From Actinocorallia sp. API 0066 (lineage in GTDB: Bacteria; Actinomycetota; Actinomycetes; Streptosporangiales; Streptosporangiaceae): a stretch of DNA of 64,000 nucleotides. A program made the translations under genes and the position numbers. The notes beneath the pieces were generated by a model. It did not search any database. It was not told the origin of the DNA and worked only from the letters and a program-made list of their open reading frames with translations. Of this stretch, positions 22,522 through 27,975 are shown one piece after another (within the stretch, counting starts at the first letter, position 1; each line of letters starts with the position of its first letter). The stretch is from the NCBI RefSeq assembly GCF_020991275.1, contig NZ_JAJLQY010000002.1, positions 372,001-436,000 of the forward strand. Direction: 5' to 3'.

Positions 22522-24816
22522 GTGCGCGGTAGACGTTCATCGGCCAGAGGCGGGAAGCCCGCCAAGCCCGTGCGCGCCGGGAAAGGCGTGCGCAGACCGC
22601 GGGTCCTTCCGGTCAGCGGACGGCTCGCCCTGGTGCTGGTCCTTCCCCTCTTCTCGCTGATCGTGCTGTACGCCTTCGCCGCGACGACGACGCTGAACGA
22701 CGCCCTGCGAAGGTTCGACTTCCAGACCCAGTACGACAACCTGGGCGACCCCGCCTCCAAGGTCGTCGAGGCGATCCAGAGCGAACGCGCCGCCGCCGCC
22801 GTCAACGGGCCGGACTTCACCGAGAAGAGCGCCTACACCGACACGATGGTCGCCGCCTTCCGCGCCAAGGCGTTCGCGCCCGACACCCAGGACGCGATGG
22901 ACGAGGTCACCAAGACCCGTGCCCGCGCACTGGACGACTCGCTCGTCGTGCTGTCCACGCTGCGCCTCGGCGTCGGCCAGACCAGCGAGATCGAGATCAT
23001 CATCGGCTACAGCAGCATCGTGGACACCGTGCTCCAGCTGCTCGGCGTCATGGTGAGCATCGACGACATCGACGTCTACCGCAACAGCAACGCCGTCCTG
23101 GACCAGCTCAGCTCCTTCGACCTCATGCTCCGGCAGACGTCGCTGCTGGAGAGCCTGCCGCAGAACGGGCGGCTCGACTCCGTCCAGCGCCAGGCGTTCA
23201 GCGGATGGGCCGACAGCCGTGGGAAGTTCTTCCGGCTCGGCGTGACCTCCCTGGACGGCCCGATGCGCGCCAAGGCCGACGAGTTCGCCCGGTCGCCCGA
23301 GTACGCGAGCCTGACCGAGCTGGAACAGAAGATCGTCATCGGCGGCGTCAACGTGAAGGGCGGCCCGACGGTCGCCGAGTGGCAGCAGACGGTCGGCGTC
23401 GCCTCGCAGGCGTGGTACCTCAACATCGGTGAGGTCAGCGCGCTGCTCAACGCCGAGGTCGAGCCGATCGGCCGGCAGATCATGGTCCGCTTCTGGGCGG
23501 CGGGCGGCATCGGCCTGCTCGCGGTCATCGCGTCGCTGCTGCTGTCGGTCAGGTTCGCCCGGAGCATGACGGCCGACCTGCGGGGCCTGGAGAAGGCGGC
23601 GCACACCCTGGCCGACGAGCGGCTGCCCGACGTCGTCGCCCGGCTGCGGCGCGGCGAGAACATCGACAGGTCCGTCGCCGAAGCGCGCCTGCCGGGCACG
23701 CCGAGGACGCAGGAGGTCGTGTCGGTCGCGGAGGCGTTCGGGACGGTCCAGCACACCGCGGTCGAGGTCGCGATCGGCGAGGCGAAGCTGCGGCAGAGCA
23801 TCGGCAAGGTGTTCGTGAACCTGTCGTGGCGCAGCCAGGGCCTGCTCCAGCGTCAGCTCCAACTGCTCGACATGATGGAGCGGCGCGCCTCCAGCCCCGA
23901 GGAACTCGACGACCTGTTCAAGCTCGACCACCTGACGACCCGGATGCGGCGGCACGCCGAGGGTCTGGTGATCCTGTCCGGGGAGCCGACCGTGCGCGCT
24001 TTCGACCACCCCGTACCGATCGAGGACATCGTCCGCGCCGCCATCGGCGAGGTCGAGGACTACACGCGTGTCGAACCCGTCGTCGCCCGGTCGTCGGCGA
24101 TCACGGGCGGTGTCGTCGCGGACGTCATCCACCTGCTGGCCGAGCTCATCGAGAACGCGACGGTGTTCTCGCCGCCCGGCACGGAGGTGGTCGTCAAAGC
24201 CGAGACCGTCGCGAACGGCCTCGCCGTCGAGGTCATCGACCGCGGCCTCGGCCTCTACCCCGACCAGCTCGCCGAACTCAACCGCAGGCTCGCCGAACCA
24301 CCCGAATTCGACCTCGCCGACTCCGACCGGCTCGGCCTGTTCGTCGTCGGGCGGCTCGCGGCACGGCACGGCATCAGGGTGTCGCTCCAGCCGTCCGCCT
24401 ACGGCGGCACCACCGCCGTCGTGCTCATCCCGACGGGCCTGATCGTGCAGGACACGCAGCCCCGGCGCCAGGTGGACGCGGCCCCGTACCGCGCGACGGC
24501 GGCCCCGGCGCCCGCCCTCGCCGCCGCGCCCGAGCGGCCCCAGCCGCAGCTGACCGCGCCGCCGCGCGCCGCCGACCACCGCTTCGAACCCGACCTCCCG
24601 CCCGAGCAGGGCGGACGGCTCCCACGCCGCCGCAGGCAGCAGAGCATGGCCCCGCAGCTGCGCACCCCCGTGCCGTCGCAGGCGCCCGAGGACGACTACT
24701 TCGAAGAGCCCGATCCCGAGTCGAGCCGCGCCCTCATGTCCTCGCTCCAGTACGGCTGGACGATGGGCCGTGACGAGCAGCCCGACGCACCGACCGACGA
24801 ACGGGAGAGACCATGA
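22522..24816 (+). CDS. cvnA: CvnA-type sensor histidine kinase-like protein with NIT domain
   Basis: This 764-aa membrane sensor belongs to conservons, the four-gene signalling units of actinomycetes. TM1 is at about 31-52 and TM2 at about 325-345. Between them is an extracellular nitrate/nitrite-sensing-like (NIT) domain. A HAMP-like linker follows, then a HATPase_c domain with N-box ELIENATVFSPPGTEV, G1 box DRGLGLYPDQL and G2 box LGLFVVGRLAARHGI. The last 160 residues are a disordered Pro/Arg/Gln tail. GTG 22522 has a GAGGAGG site. Downstream cvnB overlaps by 4 bp, but no cvnC (DUF742) or cvnD GTPase follows. Confidence 0.9.
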   Translation: MRGRRSSARGGKPAKPVRAGKGVRRPRVLPVSGRLALVLVLPLFSLIVLYAFAATTTLNDALRRFDFQTQYDNLGDPASKVVEAIQSERAAAAVNGPDFTEKSAYTDTMVAAFRAKAFAPDTQDAMDEVTKTRARALDDSLVVLSTLRLGVGQTSEIEIIIGYSSIVDTVLQLLGVMVSIDDIDVYRNSNAVLDQLSSFDLMLRQTSLLESLPQNGRLDSVQRQAFSGWADSRGKFFRLGVTSLDGPMRAKADEFARSPEYASLTELEQKIVIGGVNVKGGPTVAEWQQTVGVASQAWYLNIGEVSALLNAEVEPIGRQIMVRFWAAGGIGLLAVIASLLLSVRFARSMTADLRGLEKAAHTLADERLPDVVARLRRGENIDRSVAEARLPGTPRTQEVVSVAEAFGTVQHTAVEVAIGEAKLRQSIGKVFVNLSWRSQGLLQRQLQLLDMMERRASSPEELDDLFKLDHLTTRMRRHAEGLVILSGEPTVRAFDHPVPIEDIVRAAIGEVEDYTRVEPVVARSSAITGGVVADVIHLLAELIENATVFSPPGTEVVVKAETVANGLAVEVIDRGLGLYPDQLAELNRRLAEPPEFDLADSDRLGLFVVGRLAARHGIRVSLQPSAYGGTTAVVLIPTGLIVQDTQPRRQVDAAPYRATAAPAPALAAAPERPQPQLTAPPRAADHRFEPDLPPEQGGRLPRRRRQQSMAPQLRTPVPSQAPEDDYFEEPDPESSRALMSSLQYGWTMGRDEQPDAPTDERERP

Positions 24817-25199
24817 CCAGCGACCTGAACTGGCTGCTCGACGACCTGGTGGACCGGGTCGTCCCCGTGCACCACGCGCTGCTGCTCTCCCGGGACGGCC
24901 TCGTCATGGCCGCGTCGCGCAACCTCGCGCCCGAGGACGCCCAGTTCCTCGCGGCCCTCTCCTCGGGCTTCCACAGCCTGGCCCGCGGCGCCGCCGAGCA
25001 CTACTCGGCCGAACGCGTGAACCAGGCCGTCATCGAACTCGACGACCGCCTCTTTTTTGTCCTCCCCGCCGGTACCGGCACCTGCCTCGCCGTCCTCAGC
25101 GACGCCGGCGCCCAGGCCGCCCAGGTCGCCTACGAGATGGCGCTGCTCATCAAACGGGTCAGCCGCCACCTCACCGCCGCCGCCCGAACCGGCACCTGA
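24813..25199 (+). CDS. cvnB: Roadblock/LC7-domain protein CvnB
   Basis: This 128-aa roadblock/LC7 protein opens with DLNWLLDDLVDRVVPVHHAL and continues LLSRDGLVMAASRNL, as in CvnB. In conservons CvnB sits between the sensor and a small Ras-like GTPase. Its start overlaps the cvnA stop (ATGA), so they are translated together. The usual next genes are missing: 205 bp of non-coding DNA follow and then a convergent gene. This unit must rely on GTPases encoded elsewhere or has lost part of the pathway. Confidence 0.92.
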   Translation: MTSDLNWLLDDLVDRVVPVHHALLLSRDGLVMAASRNLAPEDAQFLAALSSGFHSLARGAAEHYSAERVNQAVIELDDRLFFVLPAGTGTCLAVLSDAGAQAAQVAYEMALLIKRVSRHLTAAARTGT

Positions 25200-25404: not shown

Positions 25405-27894
25405 TCAGGGGTGGTTCGGGGGACGGCGGGTGAGGCGCGTGATGGTCGTGGCGAGAGCGACTCCTGTGATGAGGGAAGCGGCCAGGGCCAGGAGCGGGGA
25501 GTAGTCGGCGAGCAGGGGATAGACCTGCCAGTGGGTCAGGTAGATGTACAGGGTGGAGGCGGCCAGGAGGCCCGCCAGGCGGTCCAGGGGGCGGGGGACC
25601 AGGAGGCTGCGGGCCCAGATGAGGAGGGTAAGGCCGGTGATGATGACGGTCTCGCGTACCAGCTCGTCGGGGCCGAAGTATCCGGGCACGGTTAGGAGGG
25701 CGGCGAAGGTGAGCAGGAGCCTCTTGGTCGTTGTGTCGGCGCGGGCGGCGGCCCAGCCCAGGGGGAACATCCAGAAGGCGACGATCGCGTTGGGCAGGTG
25801 CAGGAGAGTCCGCACCTCCAGGACGTCGTAGCGGAGCACCAGCCCGGCCCCGAGCAGCACCAGGGGAGCGGCGAAGGGGAACCGTCGTTCGGCGCGGTCG
25901 AGCGCGGGGACGCGGGCGAGCACGGTGAGCGCCAGCAGGATGTAGACGATGACCTCGACGAACCAGTAGTTGCTGTCGCGGCCCAGGAGGCTGTGCAGCA
26001 GCAGCGCCTGGAACAGGTGGTACCCGTCGGTGAGCAGCGCCGCGAGCGCGATCCACAGGGCGCTCGGCACGGCGATCCGCAGCGCGCTGCCCCACAGGTG
26101 ACGGCGGCGTTCGCGCAGCGTCGCCGACGTCAGGTGGAAGCGGGCGAGGTTGAAGCCCGCGACGGCGAGCAGCACGTGCGCGCCGCCCCGCACCGTGAAG
26201 AGCGGGATGTGTGATCCGACGATGAGGACGATCGCGACGGCGCGGAGCAGGACGCCCGTCTCCAGGCTGTGCCAGCGCGCCCGCCAGCCGGTGCGCGGTA
26301 CCGACGCGCGCAGGTCGCGCAGCGGTAGGAGATGCCATTCGCGCGGCAGATGGCCGAGTTCGTTCTCCAGCGCGAGAGACATCTCGACGTAGGAGAGGGA
26401 GTCGCCGCCCAGGGAGACGAAGCTGCTGTCTTCCGTGACGTCGTCCCGCCCGAGGACGCGCCGGTACAGGGCGACGAGCCTGTCCGGCGTCTCGTCCTCC
26501 GCGTAGGCCGGACGCGGAAGCGCGCGCACGGCTGACAGGTCGGGCTTGCCCGACGCAAGGCGGGGCAGCTCAGCGAGGACGTGCACATGGACCGCCCGGA
26601 CGGGCAACCCGTACTCCGCGGCGACGAGCCGCCGGAGCGGGTCGGCCTCCGGCGCCGGAGTCCCGGCCACCGCGACGACGAGCGTGTTGTCGTCCTCGTC
26701 GCCCGTGCAGCACGCGGTGCGGCCGTGCCGGGCCAGGAGGTCCTCGACGCGCCGCGGGTCGATCCGCAGCCCGTAGAGCTTGAGGAACCCGCCGCGCCGC
26801 CCCACCACCTCGTACAGCCCGTCGGGGGCGCGCCGGGCGAGGTCGCCGGTGCGCAGCTCGGTCACGGTGCGGCCGAGCGCGAGGTCGGCGGGGCCCTCGG
26901 CGTATCCGAGCATCACGTTGGGCCCGGTGTAGACGAGCTCTCCGACGTCGGGCGTAGGCACGTCGGGCACAGGATCCAGCCGGAAGGCGCCGCCGGGCAC
27001 GGGTAGGCCGACCGCTTCCGGATGCGTCGTAGCGAGGTCCGGTGGCAGGTAGGCCATTCGCGCGGTCGCCTCCGTCTGCCCGTACATGACGAAGAGATCC
27101 CAGCCTTCGCGGCGTCCCAGTTCGGCGTACCTGACGACCTGCTCGGCGGGCATCCTTCCGCCCGCCTGGGTGAGGTAGCGCAGGTGCGGCAGGCGTAGGT
27201 CGGCGAAGCCCACGCGGTCCAGAAGGTCGAACGTGTAAGGCACGCCGGACAGGGAGGTGCCCTGCGCGTCACGGAAGACGTCCCAGAAGAGCGGGTCGCC
27301 GACGGACAGGTCGGTCAGGATGAGCCCGGCCCCGCACAGGAGGTGGCTGTTGATGACGGACAGGCCGTAGCAGTACGACATAGGCAGGGTCGTCGCGGCA
27401 CGGTCATCGGGGCGGATGTCGAGGTAGGCGGCGATGGACTCGGCGTTGGCCTGGAGGTTGTCGCGGGAGAGCCGGACGAGCTTGGGCGACCCGGTGGAGC
27501 CGGACGTGCTGAGCAGCAGCGCCAGCTCCGGGTGCAGCGTGTGCGCGGACAGGGCGCGCCGCTCCGTCAGCGAGCCGTCGGGCTCGGCGACGACGTCGGG
27601 GTCGTAGGCGGCGATGAGCGAACGTTGGGCGGAGGCGCGTTCGGGGACGAGCAGCAGGGGGTGCCCGGCCGACAGCGCGGCGAGGTAGACGACGAGCGCG
27701 TCCACGGTGTGGGCGCAGGGGAGCAGGACGAGCCGGCGTTCGGCGCCCAGCCGCGCCGCGGCGTCCGCGACGCGTTCGGCGAGCTCCCGGTAGTTCAGGA
27801 CGCCGTCCCGGTGGACGACGGCCGTCCGGTCCGCGTGATTCGCCAGCGCGTCGGGGAAACGCGGCTGCTTTGTGCTTGAGGCGGGGGGAGACAC
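25405..27894 (-). CDS. Adenylation domain + carrier protein + integral-membrane acyltransferase, fused
   Basis: A rare three-part protein, 829 aa from GTG 27894. Residues about 15-440 are an ANL adenylation domain: core motif LLLSTSGSTGSPKLVRLS, then MYGQTEATARMAY, TGDLARRAPDGLYEVVGRRG and a SGKPD-type C-terminal lysine. A carrier domain of about 75 residues follows, with the phosphopantetheine serine in SLGGDSLSYVEMSL. The last 290 residues contain about nine membrane segments resembling acyltransferase-3 proteins. It likely activates an acid, loads it on its own carrier and passes it to a membrane acceptor. An IdeR/DtxR-like iron box overlaps the promoter. A longer in-frame start at 27924 would place the box inside the gene. 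Confidence 0.85.
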   Translation of the reverse strand: MSPPASSTKQPRFPDALANHADRTAVVHRDGVLNYRELAERVADAAARLGAERRLVLLPCAHTVDALVVYLAALSAGHPLLLVPERASAQRSLIAAYDPDVVAEPDGSLTERRALSAHTLHPELALLLSTSGSTGSPKLVRLSRDNLQANAESIAAYLDIRPDDRAATTLPMSYCYGLSVINSHLLCGAGLILTDLSVGDPLFWDVFRDAQGTSLSGVPYTFDLLDRVGFADLRLPHLRYLTQAGGRMPAEQVVRYAELGRREGWDLFVMYGQTEATARMAYLPPDLATTHPEAVGLPVPGGAFRLDPVPDVPTPDVGELVYTGPNVMLGYAEGPADLALGRTVTELRTGDLARRAPDGLYEVVGRRGGFLKLYGLRIDPRRVEDLLARHGRTACCTGDEDDNTLVVAVAGTPAPEADPLRRLVAAEYGLPVRAVHVHVLAELPRLASGKPDLSAVRALPRPAYAEDETPDRLVALYRRVLGRDDVTEDSSFVSLGGDSLSYVEMSLALENELGHLPREWHLLPLRDLRASVPRTGWRARWHSLETGVLLRAVAIVLIVGSHIPLFTVRGGAHVLLAVAGFNLARFHLTSATLRERRRHLWGSALRIAVPSALWIALAALLTDGYHLFQALLLHSLLGRDSNYWFVEVIVYILLALTVLARVPALDRAERRFPFAAPLVLLGAGLVLRYDVLEVRTLLHLPNAIVAFWMFPLGWAAARADTTTKRLLLTFAALLTVPGYFGPDELVRETVIITGLTLLIWARSLLVPRPLDRLAGLLAASTLYIYLTHWQVYPLLADYSPLLALAASLITGVALATTITRLTRRPPNHP

Positions 27895-27922
27895 GCCACC
27901 AGCATAGGTAAGGCTAACCTTC
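27895..27922 (-). promoter_or_regulatory. Probable IdeR/DtxR iron box and leaderless promoter
   Basis: On the plus strand 27906-27920 reads AGGTAAGGCTAACCT, matching the inner 15 bases of the iron-box consensus at 14 positions; over the full 19-bp consensus 15 match. On the minus strand a TATGCT -10 element (27906-27901) is followed by 6 bases and then GTG 27894, which fits a leaderless transcript. An iron-loaded repressor bound here would block the polymerase. Confidence 0.7.
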
Positions 27923-27975
27923 ACCAGAATACGGCTGGGCGGATCATTGGGTTCGCCCGGCCTGGGTCGCGCGCG

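Follow-up and report, generated by a model that had tools for sequence, protein, structure and literature searches.

Why would a bacterium place behind an iron-type operator a single protein that joins acid activation, a carrier and a membrane acyltransferase? The question is raised by a gene in a window of 64,000 nt of Actinocorallia sp. API 0066 (contig NZ_JAJLQY010000002.1), whose numbering is used for all positions below. The gene, designated A-T-AT3 for its adenylation (A), thiolation or carrier (T) and AT3 transmembrane acyltransferase domains, begins just past a perfect iron box. Such boxes recur at the starts of its relatives, many of which lie beside genes for the ferric-ion importer FbpABC. 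Together, these comparisons suggest, with a probability that we put at about 60%, that the product would be an IdeR-repressed, self-loading transmembrane acyltransferase serving FbpABC ferric import.

The iron box and the start of the gene

A sequence-only reading of this DNA had placed an iron box against a TATGCT −10 element, and inspection of the site bore this out. The box, AGGTAAGGCTAACCT, agrees with the pattern AGGTWAGSCTWACCT at every position, overlaps the −10 element by one base and is the sole match in the window at up to three mismatches. A match within the window proves little by itself, since at this loose limit 0.47 matches are expected by chance and 38 of 100 shuffles contained at least one; the significance of the box comes from a genome-wide excess and from conservation around orthologue starts. 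At up to two mismatches, the 7.0 Mb genome holds 26 sites as against 3 for the reversed pattern, and six of them, including the window box, are perfect. The 25 other sites fall in 18 stretches, whose nearby genes were listed. A Pfam scan of ten proteins, selected by eye for an iron-like look or for adjacency to a box, returned two lysine/ornithine N-monooxygenases, a heme oxygenase, a binding protein of siderophore type (Peripla_BP_2), a chorismate-binding enzyme, two AMP-binding enzymes, two ATP-binding cassette (ABC) components and one protein without a match. Several of the 18 stretches (e.g. L041-L045) had no obvious iron gene nearby, so that some sites may be there by chance. A DtxR/IdeR-type C-terminal domain is encoded in the genome (G000:C1:118877).

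The initiation codon had originally been put at 27924, the start given in the list of open reading frames (ORFs). This GTG (27924-27922) lies upstream of the box and was rejected, since in relatives the start codon comes after the box. The start was moved to the GTG at 27894, 11 nt from the end of the box (Table 1), and with this correction the leaderless-type geometry of the promoter was upheld. The −35 element is poor in the window. In several Actinomadura relatives TTGGCA, or a close variant of it, precedes the −10 element by about 17 bases, which leaves the operator to fill the spacer.

The search for conserved iron boxes in homologues, which had been put forward as a check, gave a clear answer. 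A scan of named genomes yielded 171 matches, the best 80 of which were kept as orthologue loci; these include Actinomadura, Thermomonospora, Streptomyces, Micromonospora, Catellatospora, Frankia, Arthrobacter, Kocuria, Kineococcus, Nocardioides and Mycobacterium. Boxes were sought from 260 bases upstream to 45 downstream of the match start, with random windows from the same loci as control. A box with at most two mismatches was found in 67 of the 80 loci (perfect in one, with a single mismatch in 43 and with two in 23), compared with 2 of 1463 control windows, four more of which reached three mismatches. Six of the remaining loci carry a box with three mismatches and seven have none at that limit. 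Only one of the 15 box positions varies among the six closest sequences.

Promoter geometry was examined in 81 sequences (the 80 loci and the window), 63 of which had a box with at most three mismatches between 110 bases upstream and 45 downstream. An in-frame start-type codon followed within 18 nt in 61 of these and a TANNNT motif overlapped the box or lay just past it in 60; a Shine-Dalgarno-like motif was found in only two. In some rows the nearest start-type codon sits within the −10 element or directly behind it (distances 3-6), so that the true start lies further on there. The arrangement extends across several actinobacterial families and is the one expected of a leaderless transcript. 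At many Streptomyces loci the best box faces a divergent gene; most of these loci have a second box nearer the A-T-AT3 start.

Two other sites in this genome were recorded. Another AMP-binding ORF (L028:3568-4791) has its GTG 15 nt past the end of a second perfect iron box (G000:C1:216037-216051, L028:3538-3552); leaderless iron-box promoters may be a habit of this genome. Directly behind a box with one mismatch (G000:C1:557573) lies a gene for a 360-aa protein (L033:3127-4206) that matched no Pfam family at 1e-5.

Linkage of relatives to the FbpABC ferric importer

The pairing with FbpABC had gone unremarked in the sequence-only reading, and the importer does not adjoin the window gene. It became apparent from the neighbours of the 80 orthologues, called with a simple script based on GC content at third codon positions (GC3), by which small genes may be missed or falsely called. 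Within about 10 kb, the commonest neighbour family was an FbpA-type ferric-binding protein, found at 49 of the 80 loci. A permease family was present at 32 loci and an ATPase family at 19, some of its members misgrouped, as it holds ABC genes other than FbpABC (e.g. L106); neighbour families 3, 5 and 6 look like antisense artefacts. The best solved relatives of one representative binding protein are ferric-binding proteins (7w3w, 7e-69; HitA, YfuA, FbpA), and the Tyr-Tyr iron-ligand pair is present in 50 of 50 binding proteins, comprising those of the 49 loci and the homologue from the window genome.

The two genes are mostly divergent, and transporter genes reading in the same direction occur upstream (L113, L121) or downstream (L088, L095). 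A box with at most two mismatches lies in the gap, or at its edge, in all 35 cleanly divergent pairs, 18 of which hold two; some boxes fall at the gap edge because the search began 150 bases inside the called start of the binding-protein gene. Five loci counted as non-divergent (L049, L050, L051, L054, L082) also have a divergent binding-protein gene, with its start called too far upstream.

A plasmid search gave 88 records, and in 77 of these a single place accounts for 80% or more of the query; Rhizobium, Leisingera, Rhodococcus and Mycolicibacterium are represented. On annotated plasmids, FbpA linkage was found in four of the five actinobacterial records examined (Rhodococcus opacus, R. fascians, Mycolicibacterium crocinum and M. 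chubuense; not in Arthrobacter sp. FW306-05-C) and in one of eight proteobacterial ones (Pararhizobium sp. A13). The genes form an operon arrangement on the Rhodococcus and Mycolicibacterium plasmids and a divergent pair in Pararhizobium.

The two genes also tend to occur in the same genomes. In a sample of the phylum, 15 of 396 genomes, the window genome included, match A-T-AT3 at E≤1e-120; FbpA was found at E 1e-60 in 10 of these 15 and in 89 of the 381 others (Fisher p 6e-4), or in 9 of 14 carriers when the window genome is left out (p 2e-3). Within the family, the full architecture is present in 6 of 200 genomes, in one of them split over two contigs; two other searched genomes of the same genus gave no match. 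All six carriers have FbpA, versus 31 of the 194 other genomes (p 3e-5), and so do all five without the window genome (p 1.5e-4). These p values are optimistic, since the genomes share ancestry and, in one of the six, the FbpA used as query adjoins the gene.

Among the examples inspected (binding-protein genes of L046-L051, L106 and L133), six linked FbpA proteins read YSGRNE near the N-terminus, the homologue from the window genome reads YSGRSE and that of L106 has His. This site may be the one where Haemophilus FbpA has its N-terminal His iron ligand. An outside ligand could fill the iron-ligand place where this His is missing.

Other plasmid neighbours were noted as well. Copies in Rhodococcus, Arthrobacter and Mycolicibacterium (L152, L154, L160, L161) lie near genes of metal-handling or cytochrome type: P-type ATPases, ArsR, a cadmium transporter, a CopY-type regulator and CcdA. 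On plasmids of Roseateles, Pararhizobium and Shinella (L150, L155, L158), a MerR-type regulator and a glutaredoxin or MauE/DoxX-like protein recur near the A-T-AT3 gene.

Adenylation, carrier and membrane acyltransferase domains

That a single polypeptide unites adenylation, carrier and membrane acyltransferase domains, as previously proposed, was supported by the agreement of Pfam, conserved residues and predicted fold. The 829-aa protein scores 133 bits for AMP-binding, 31 for PP-binding and 40 for Acyl_transf_3, all above curated cut-offs. The A3 motif, the catalytic Lys (K450) and the carrier serine (Ser499) of an A-T didomain of the nonribosomal peptide synthetase (NRPS) type are all present. 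In the 81 aligned sequences Y174, Y176, G177, S179, T242, Q243, A244, M270, A278, R279, K450, Ser499, R551 and H562 are invariant, C175 is found in 80, and position 217, which we assign to the pocket, has Gly in 52 sequences and Ala in the other 29. Three proteobacterial proteins have the same pocket pattern save Ser for C175 and Val for Q243. Since the pocket is near-invariant in the 81 sequences, one acid or a narrow class of acids is probably used throughout Actinomycetota.

Several candidates for this acid were considered. The Asp that binds the amino group in amino-acid A domains, presumably at the position of GrsA 235, was not found: its place is taken by Cys175 in our own reading or by Gly177 in a HMMER alignment to LgrA. 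An amino-acid NRPS module is thus ruled out by the usual code. An aryl acid such as salicylate or dihydroxybenzoate is less likely, as the pocket does not resemble aryl codes and the common neighbours include no chorismate gene. The A-domain structure resembles MenE and NRPS A domains; the search returned ligases of many different substrates, so that the acid is not nameable from structure. A dicarboxylate, read from R279, is a candidate only: VinN (3wvn) was the sixth-ranked match and a shorter query gave no match. Most stand-alone A-domain relatives keep nearly the same pocket residues (4 of 20 were left out of the comparison), and the acid may be shared between them and the A-T-AT3 proteins. 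Seven stretches with such relatives (L126-L132) hold carrier proteins and, variously, short-chain dehydrogenase/reductase, LuxE-like and MaoC-like proteins, and several lie near glycosyltransferase or sugar genes, all named by eye.

The membrane part matches PF01757 at 39.9 bits (cut-off 31), as do, at E 0.001, 33 of the 35 members of one alignment that includes the window protein. Instead of the nine or so helices suggested earlier, the predicted structure has 10-11. The model of the full protein reached a mean predicted local distance difference test score (pLDDT) of 84.6 and a predicted template modelling score (pTM) of 0.54, and that of the membrane part 92.1 and 0.89; the latter model has the ten helices of the transmembrane acyltransferase (TmAT) fold. 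Compared by VIA-align, the membrane part gave Z 13.4 with human HGSNAT (259 aligned, 4.9 Å) and Z 9.1 with GWT1, both well clear of the rest (at most 5.0 in the other rows shown), scores that are tempered by the tool's own note that helical models can reach a best Z near 14 without kinship. With Foldseek alone, nothing of AT3 type scored below E 0.001, and HGSNAT came second, at a probability of 0.69.

The charges of most loops speak for a carrier and an N-terminus on the cytoplasmic side; the helix limits were set by hand, and two short loops point the other way. This orientation would place His562 at the outer end of the first helix, the position described for His25 of OafB (PMC9833829). In the third transmembrane helix (TMH3), the first Arg of the RxxR motif is replaced by Ser, Gly, Ala or Thr in 81 of 81 sequences and the second is retained in 78. 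Simulations of OafB assign to this second Arg a part in holding the 3′-phosphate of coenzyme A (CoA) (PMC9833829). Loss of the first Arg weakly fits a donor other than free CoA; the argument is weak and the motif not a defining one, since among six other PF01757 proteins of the genome two have RxxR, one has RxxK and three have neither.

Table 1. Coordinates of the A-T-AT3 gene, its promoter elements and its domains (window numbering).
Feature	Position	Strand	Basis or remarks
Iron box AGGTTAGCCTTACCT (minus strand), IdeR/DmdR1-type operator	27906..27920	-	0 mismatches; conserved at orthologue starts
−10 element TATGCT	27901..27906	-	Read on sequence; first base is last T of box
Start codon GTG, predicted leaderless	27892..27894	-	6 nt after −10 element
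A-T-AT3 gene (829 aa plus stop, GTG start)	25405..27894	-	Pfam domains; start from N-termini of relatives and promoter geometry
Adenylation domain, aa 1-460	26515..27894	-	A3 motif STSGSTG; pocket C175 Y176 S179 T242 Q243 A244 M270 A278 R279; K450
Carrier (thiolation) domain, ~aa 471-525, GGDSL with Ser499	26320..26484	-	Pfam PP-binding match aa 471-514
AT3 transmembrane acyltransferase domain, ~aa 541-823, R551-X10-H562	25426..26274	-	Pfam; R and H in 81/81

In the window, the A-T-AT3 gene is flanked by a TetR gene on one side and by a convergent pair encoding an NIT-domain sensor kinase and a Roadblock protein (22522-25199) on the other. The pair resembles a shortened conservon.

A proposed acyl-transfer step in ferric import and its alternatives

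We propose that when iron is scarce, IdeR/DmdR1 would leave the box overlapping the promoter and a leaderless mRNA would be made, starting at the GTG. The A domain would then use ATP to activate one small carboxylic acid and pass it to the phosphopantetheine arm on Ser499 of the adjoining carrier. On the cytoplasmic side, the AT3 domain would take the acyl group from this arm, and it would transfer it to an extracytoplasmic acceptor at the outer face, where His562 is expected. The product would help Fe3+ to reach FbpABC, in the simplest case as an iron ligand carried by a small molecule that is exported or by a component of the envelope; we assign it to ferric-ion import because the pairing with FbpABC recurs. 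Since FbpABC is described as an importer of free ferric ions in the part of the literature consulted (PMC3534580), the acylated product may be a ligand by which Fe3+ is retained or displayed at the surface. We lean slightly towards an acceptor in the envelope rather than a diffusible molecule, because AT3 enzymes usually act there. The many relatives beside the importer point to an undescribed step in iron uptake. A bolder version, which we offer as a speculation with the odds against it, is that of a "one-gene" ferric ligand system, in which a carrier-fed AT3-type enzyme would make the extracytoplasmic ligand by which its partner FbpA captures Fe3+, in a family spanning Actinomycetota and Alphaproteobacteria.

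A number of observations weigh against the involvement of the enzyme in FbpABC import or against its carrier-fed donor. No box with up to two mismatches was found at 13 of the 80 loci, and the neighbour counts stand without a matched chance rate. At 31 of the 80 loci there is no FbpA in the examined stretch, some contigs being short; most Arthrobacter loci belong here, having the box with no FbpA found in the stretch. The window gene itself has no FbpABC neighbour: the FbpA homologue of this genome (50% identity, E 1.5e-92) is on another contig, with only three-mismatch boxes upstream, and 5 of the 15 gene-carrying genomes of the phylum sample have no FbpA at 1e-60. Those AT3 proteins that have been studied use acyl-CoA, and a review argues against an acyl carrier protein as donor in the sections consulted (PMC9558356). 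Finally, no iron genes lie near the gene at 7 of the 8 proteobacterial loci examined, though the three that were compared have almost the same pocket.

The proteobacterial loci would suit a general A-T-AT3 envelope enzyme that came under an iron promoter incidentally, in some lineages only. We hold this improbable, as both the box and the proximity to FbpA are met repeatedly, across several actinobacterial families and gene arrangements, and one alphaproteobacterium shows the linkage too. It is just as improbable that the AT3 domain acylates a siderophore, or its precursor, made by an assembly pathway encoded elsewhere. The genome does have iron-boxed genes for an N-hydroxylase, an AMP-ligase and a chorismate enzyme; the 80 loci share no siderophore-cluster gene family, however, and the invariance of the pocket across very different genera argues for one common acid. 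A visible siderophore cluster was ruled out, since no biosynthesis, export or receptor family is among the commonest neighbours of the 80 loci, as called by the simple script, except the FbpABC-type transporter.

The two remaining alternatives concern the acceptor. Under iron starvation, the enzyme might acylate an exopolysaccharide, a glycolipid or a polymer of the wall, so that Fe3+ sites arise at the surface or its charge is altered, and FbpABC would be supplied from this pool. AT3 domains are typically envelope acyltransferases, usually acting on glycans, according to the review cited above (PMC9558356), and the stand-alone A-domain relatives with a near-identical pocket lie beside a carrier gene and, at several loci, the sugar genes noted by eye. 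On the other hand, the A-T-AT3 loci share no glycan gene family, and the enzyme family occurs in Gram-positive and Gram-negative bacteria, whose envelopes have few acceptors in common; we regard this version as conceivable though on the unlikely side. Somewhat more doubtful is a minimal siderophore, in which a soluble primary metabolite would be acylated to give a small secreted chelator taken up with Fe3+ by FbpA. The iron box and the co-located importer are what it would predict, and gene clustering revealed no other biosynthetic family common to the loci, so that a one-step product from common metabolites is possible. It is opposed by the lack of any exporter or siderophore-type receptor family common to the loci, by the description of FbpABC as taking free ferric ions (PMC3534580) and by the usual preference of AT3 enzymes for glycans (PMC9558356).

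The proposed carrier-fed acyltransferase, if it exists, would add an acyl-transfer step to ferric-ion import, usually described as needing FbpABC only, and would mean that a transmembrane acyltransferase can use a built-in carrier protein instead of acyl-CoA. Both ideas are testable with a single gene, found in actinomycetes that are easily handled and not pathogenic, and since the pocket hardly varies, asking which acid is used is a well-posed question. Searches of open-access papers brought up no description of the adenylation-carrier-AT3 architecture, which does not show that none exists.

Among known systems, D-alanylation by Dlt offers a parallel: DltA, DltC and DltB act serially, in acid activation, as carrier and as membrane acyltransferase, to modify the cell exterior. 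These are three separate proteins, which work with DltD, and DltB is an MBOAT. The same order of activation, carrier and membrane acyltransferase is predicted here from sequence, whereas the A-T-AT3 protein is one chain, with an AT3 domain and an iron box. It was ruled out as a Dlt system by having AT3 in place of MBOAT: only AMP-binding, PP-binding and Acyl_transf_3 of Pfam match the 829-aa protein at E 0.1. Mycobactin acylation by MbtM, MbtL and MbtK is likewise an iron-regulated sequence of acid activation, carrier and acyl transfer, carried out by separate proteins with a soluble acyltransferase. The steps are alike; the A-T-AT3 protein differs as one chain with a membrane domain, and the MbtM profile scores only 60 of 621 bits. 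With NRPS A-T modules and acid ligases (LgrA, MenE, TIGR03098) it shares the A3 motif and the catalytic Lys, and with NRPS also the carrier Ser, but it lacks the amino-group Asp and ends in a membrane acyltransferase; TIGR03098 scores 154 of 592 bits, far below its cut-off.

FbpABC and SfuABC ferric importers correspond to the importer beside many relatives, and no acyltransferase is named as a part of FbpABC in the portions of the literature examined. OafB, OatA and HGSNAT, as AT3/TmAT enzymes, resemble the A-T-AT3 protein in predicted fold, in R-X10-H and in the expected transfer at the outer face, and differ in that it has built-in A and carrier domains and lacks the first Arg of the TMH3 RxxR. 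AMP-binding, phosphopantetheine, adenyl and iron are terms absent from the main text of the AT3 review (PMC9558356). The AT3 fusions described in the parts of the sources consulted are to SGNH, racemase and NRF, with acyl-CoA as donor (PMC9558356, PMC9833829, PMC12423673). The closest of these in plan is VanT, in which AT3 is fused to a cytoplasmic racemase (PMC9558356, PMC12423673): it too joins a membrane acyltransferase to a cytoplasmic enzyme domain, with the racemase standing where the A-T-AT3 protein has its adenylation and carrier domains.

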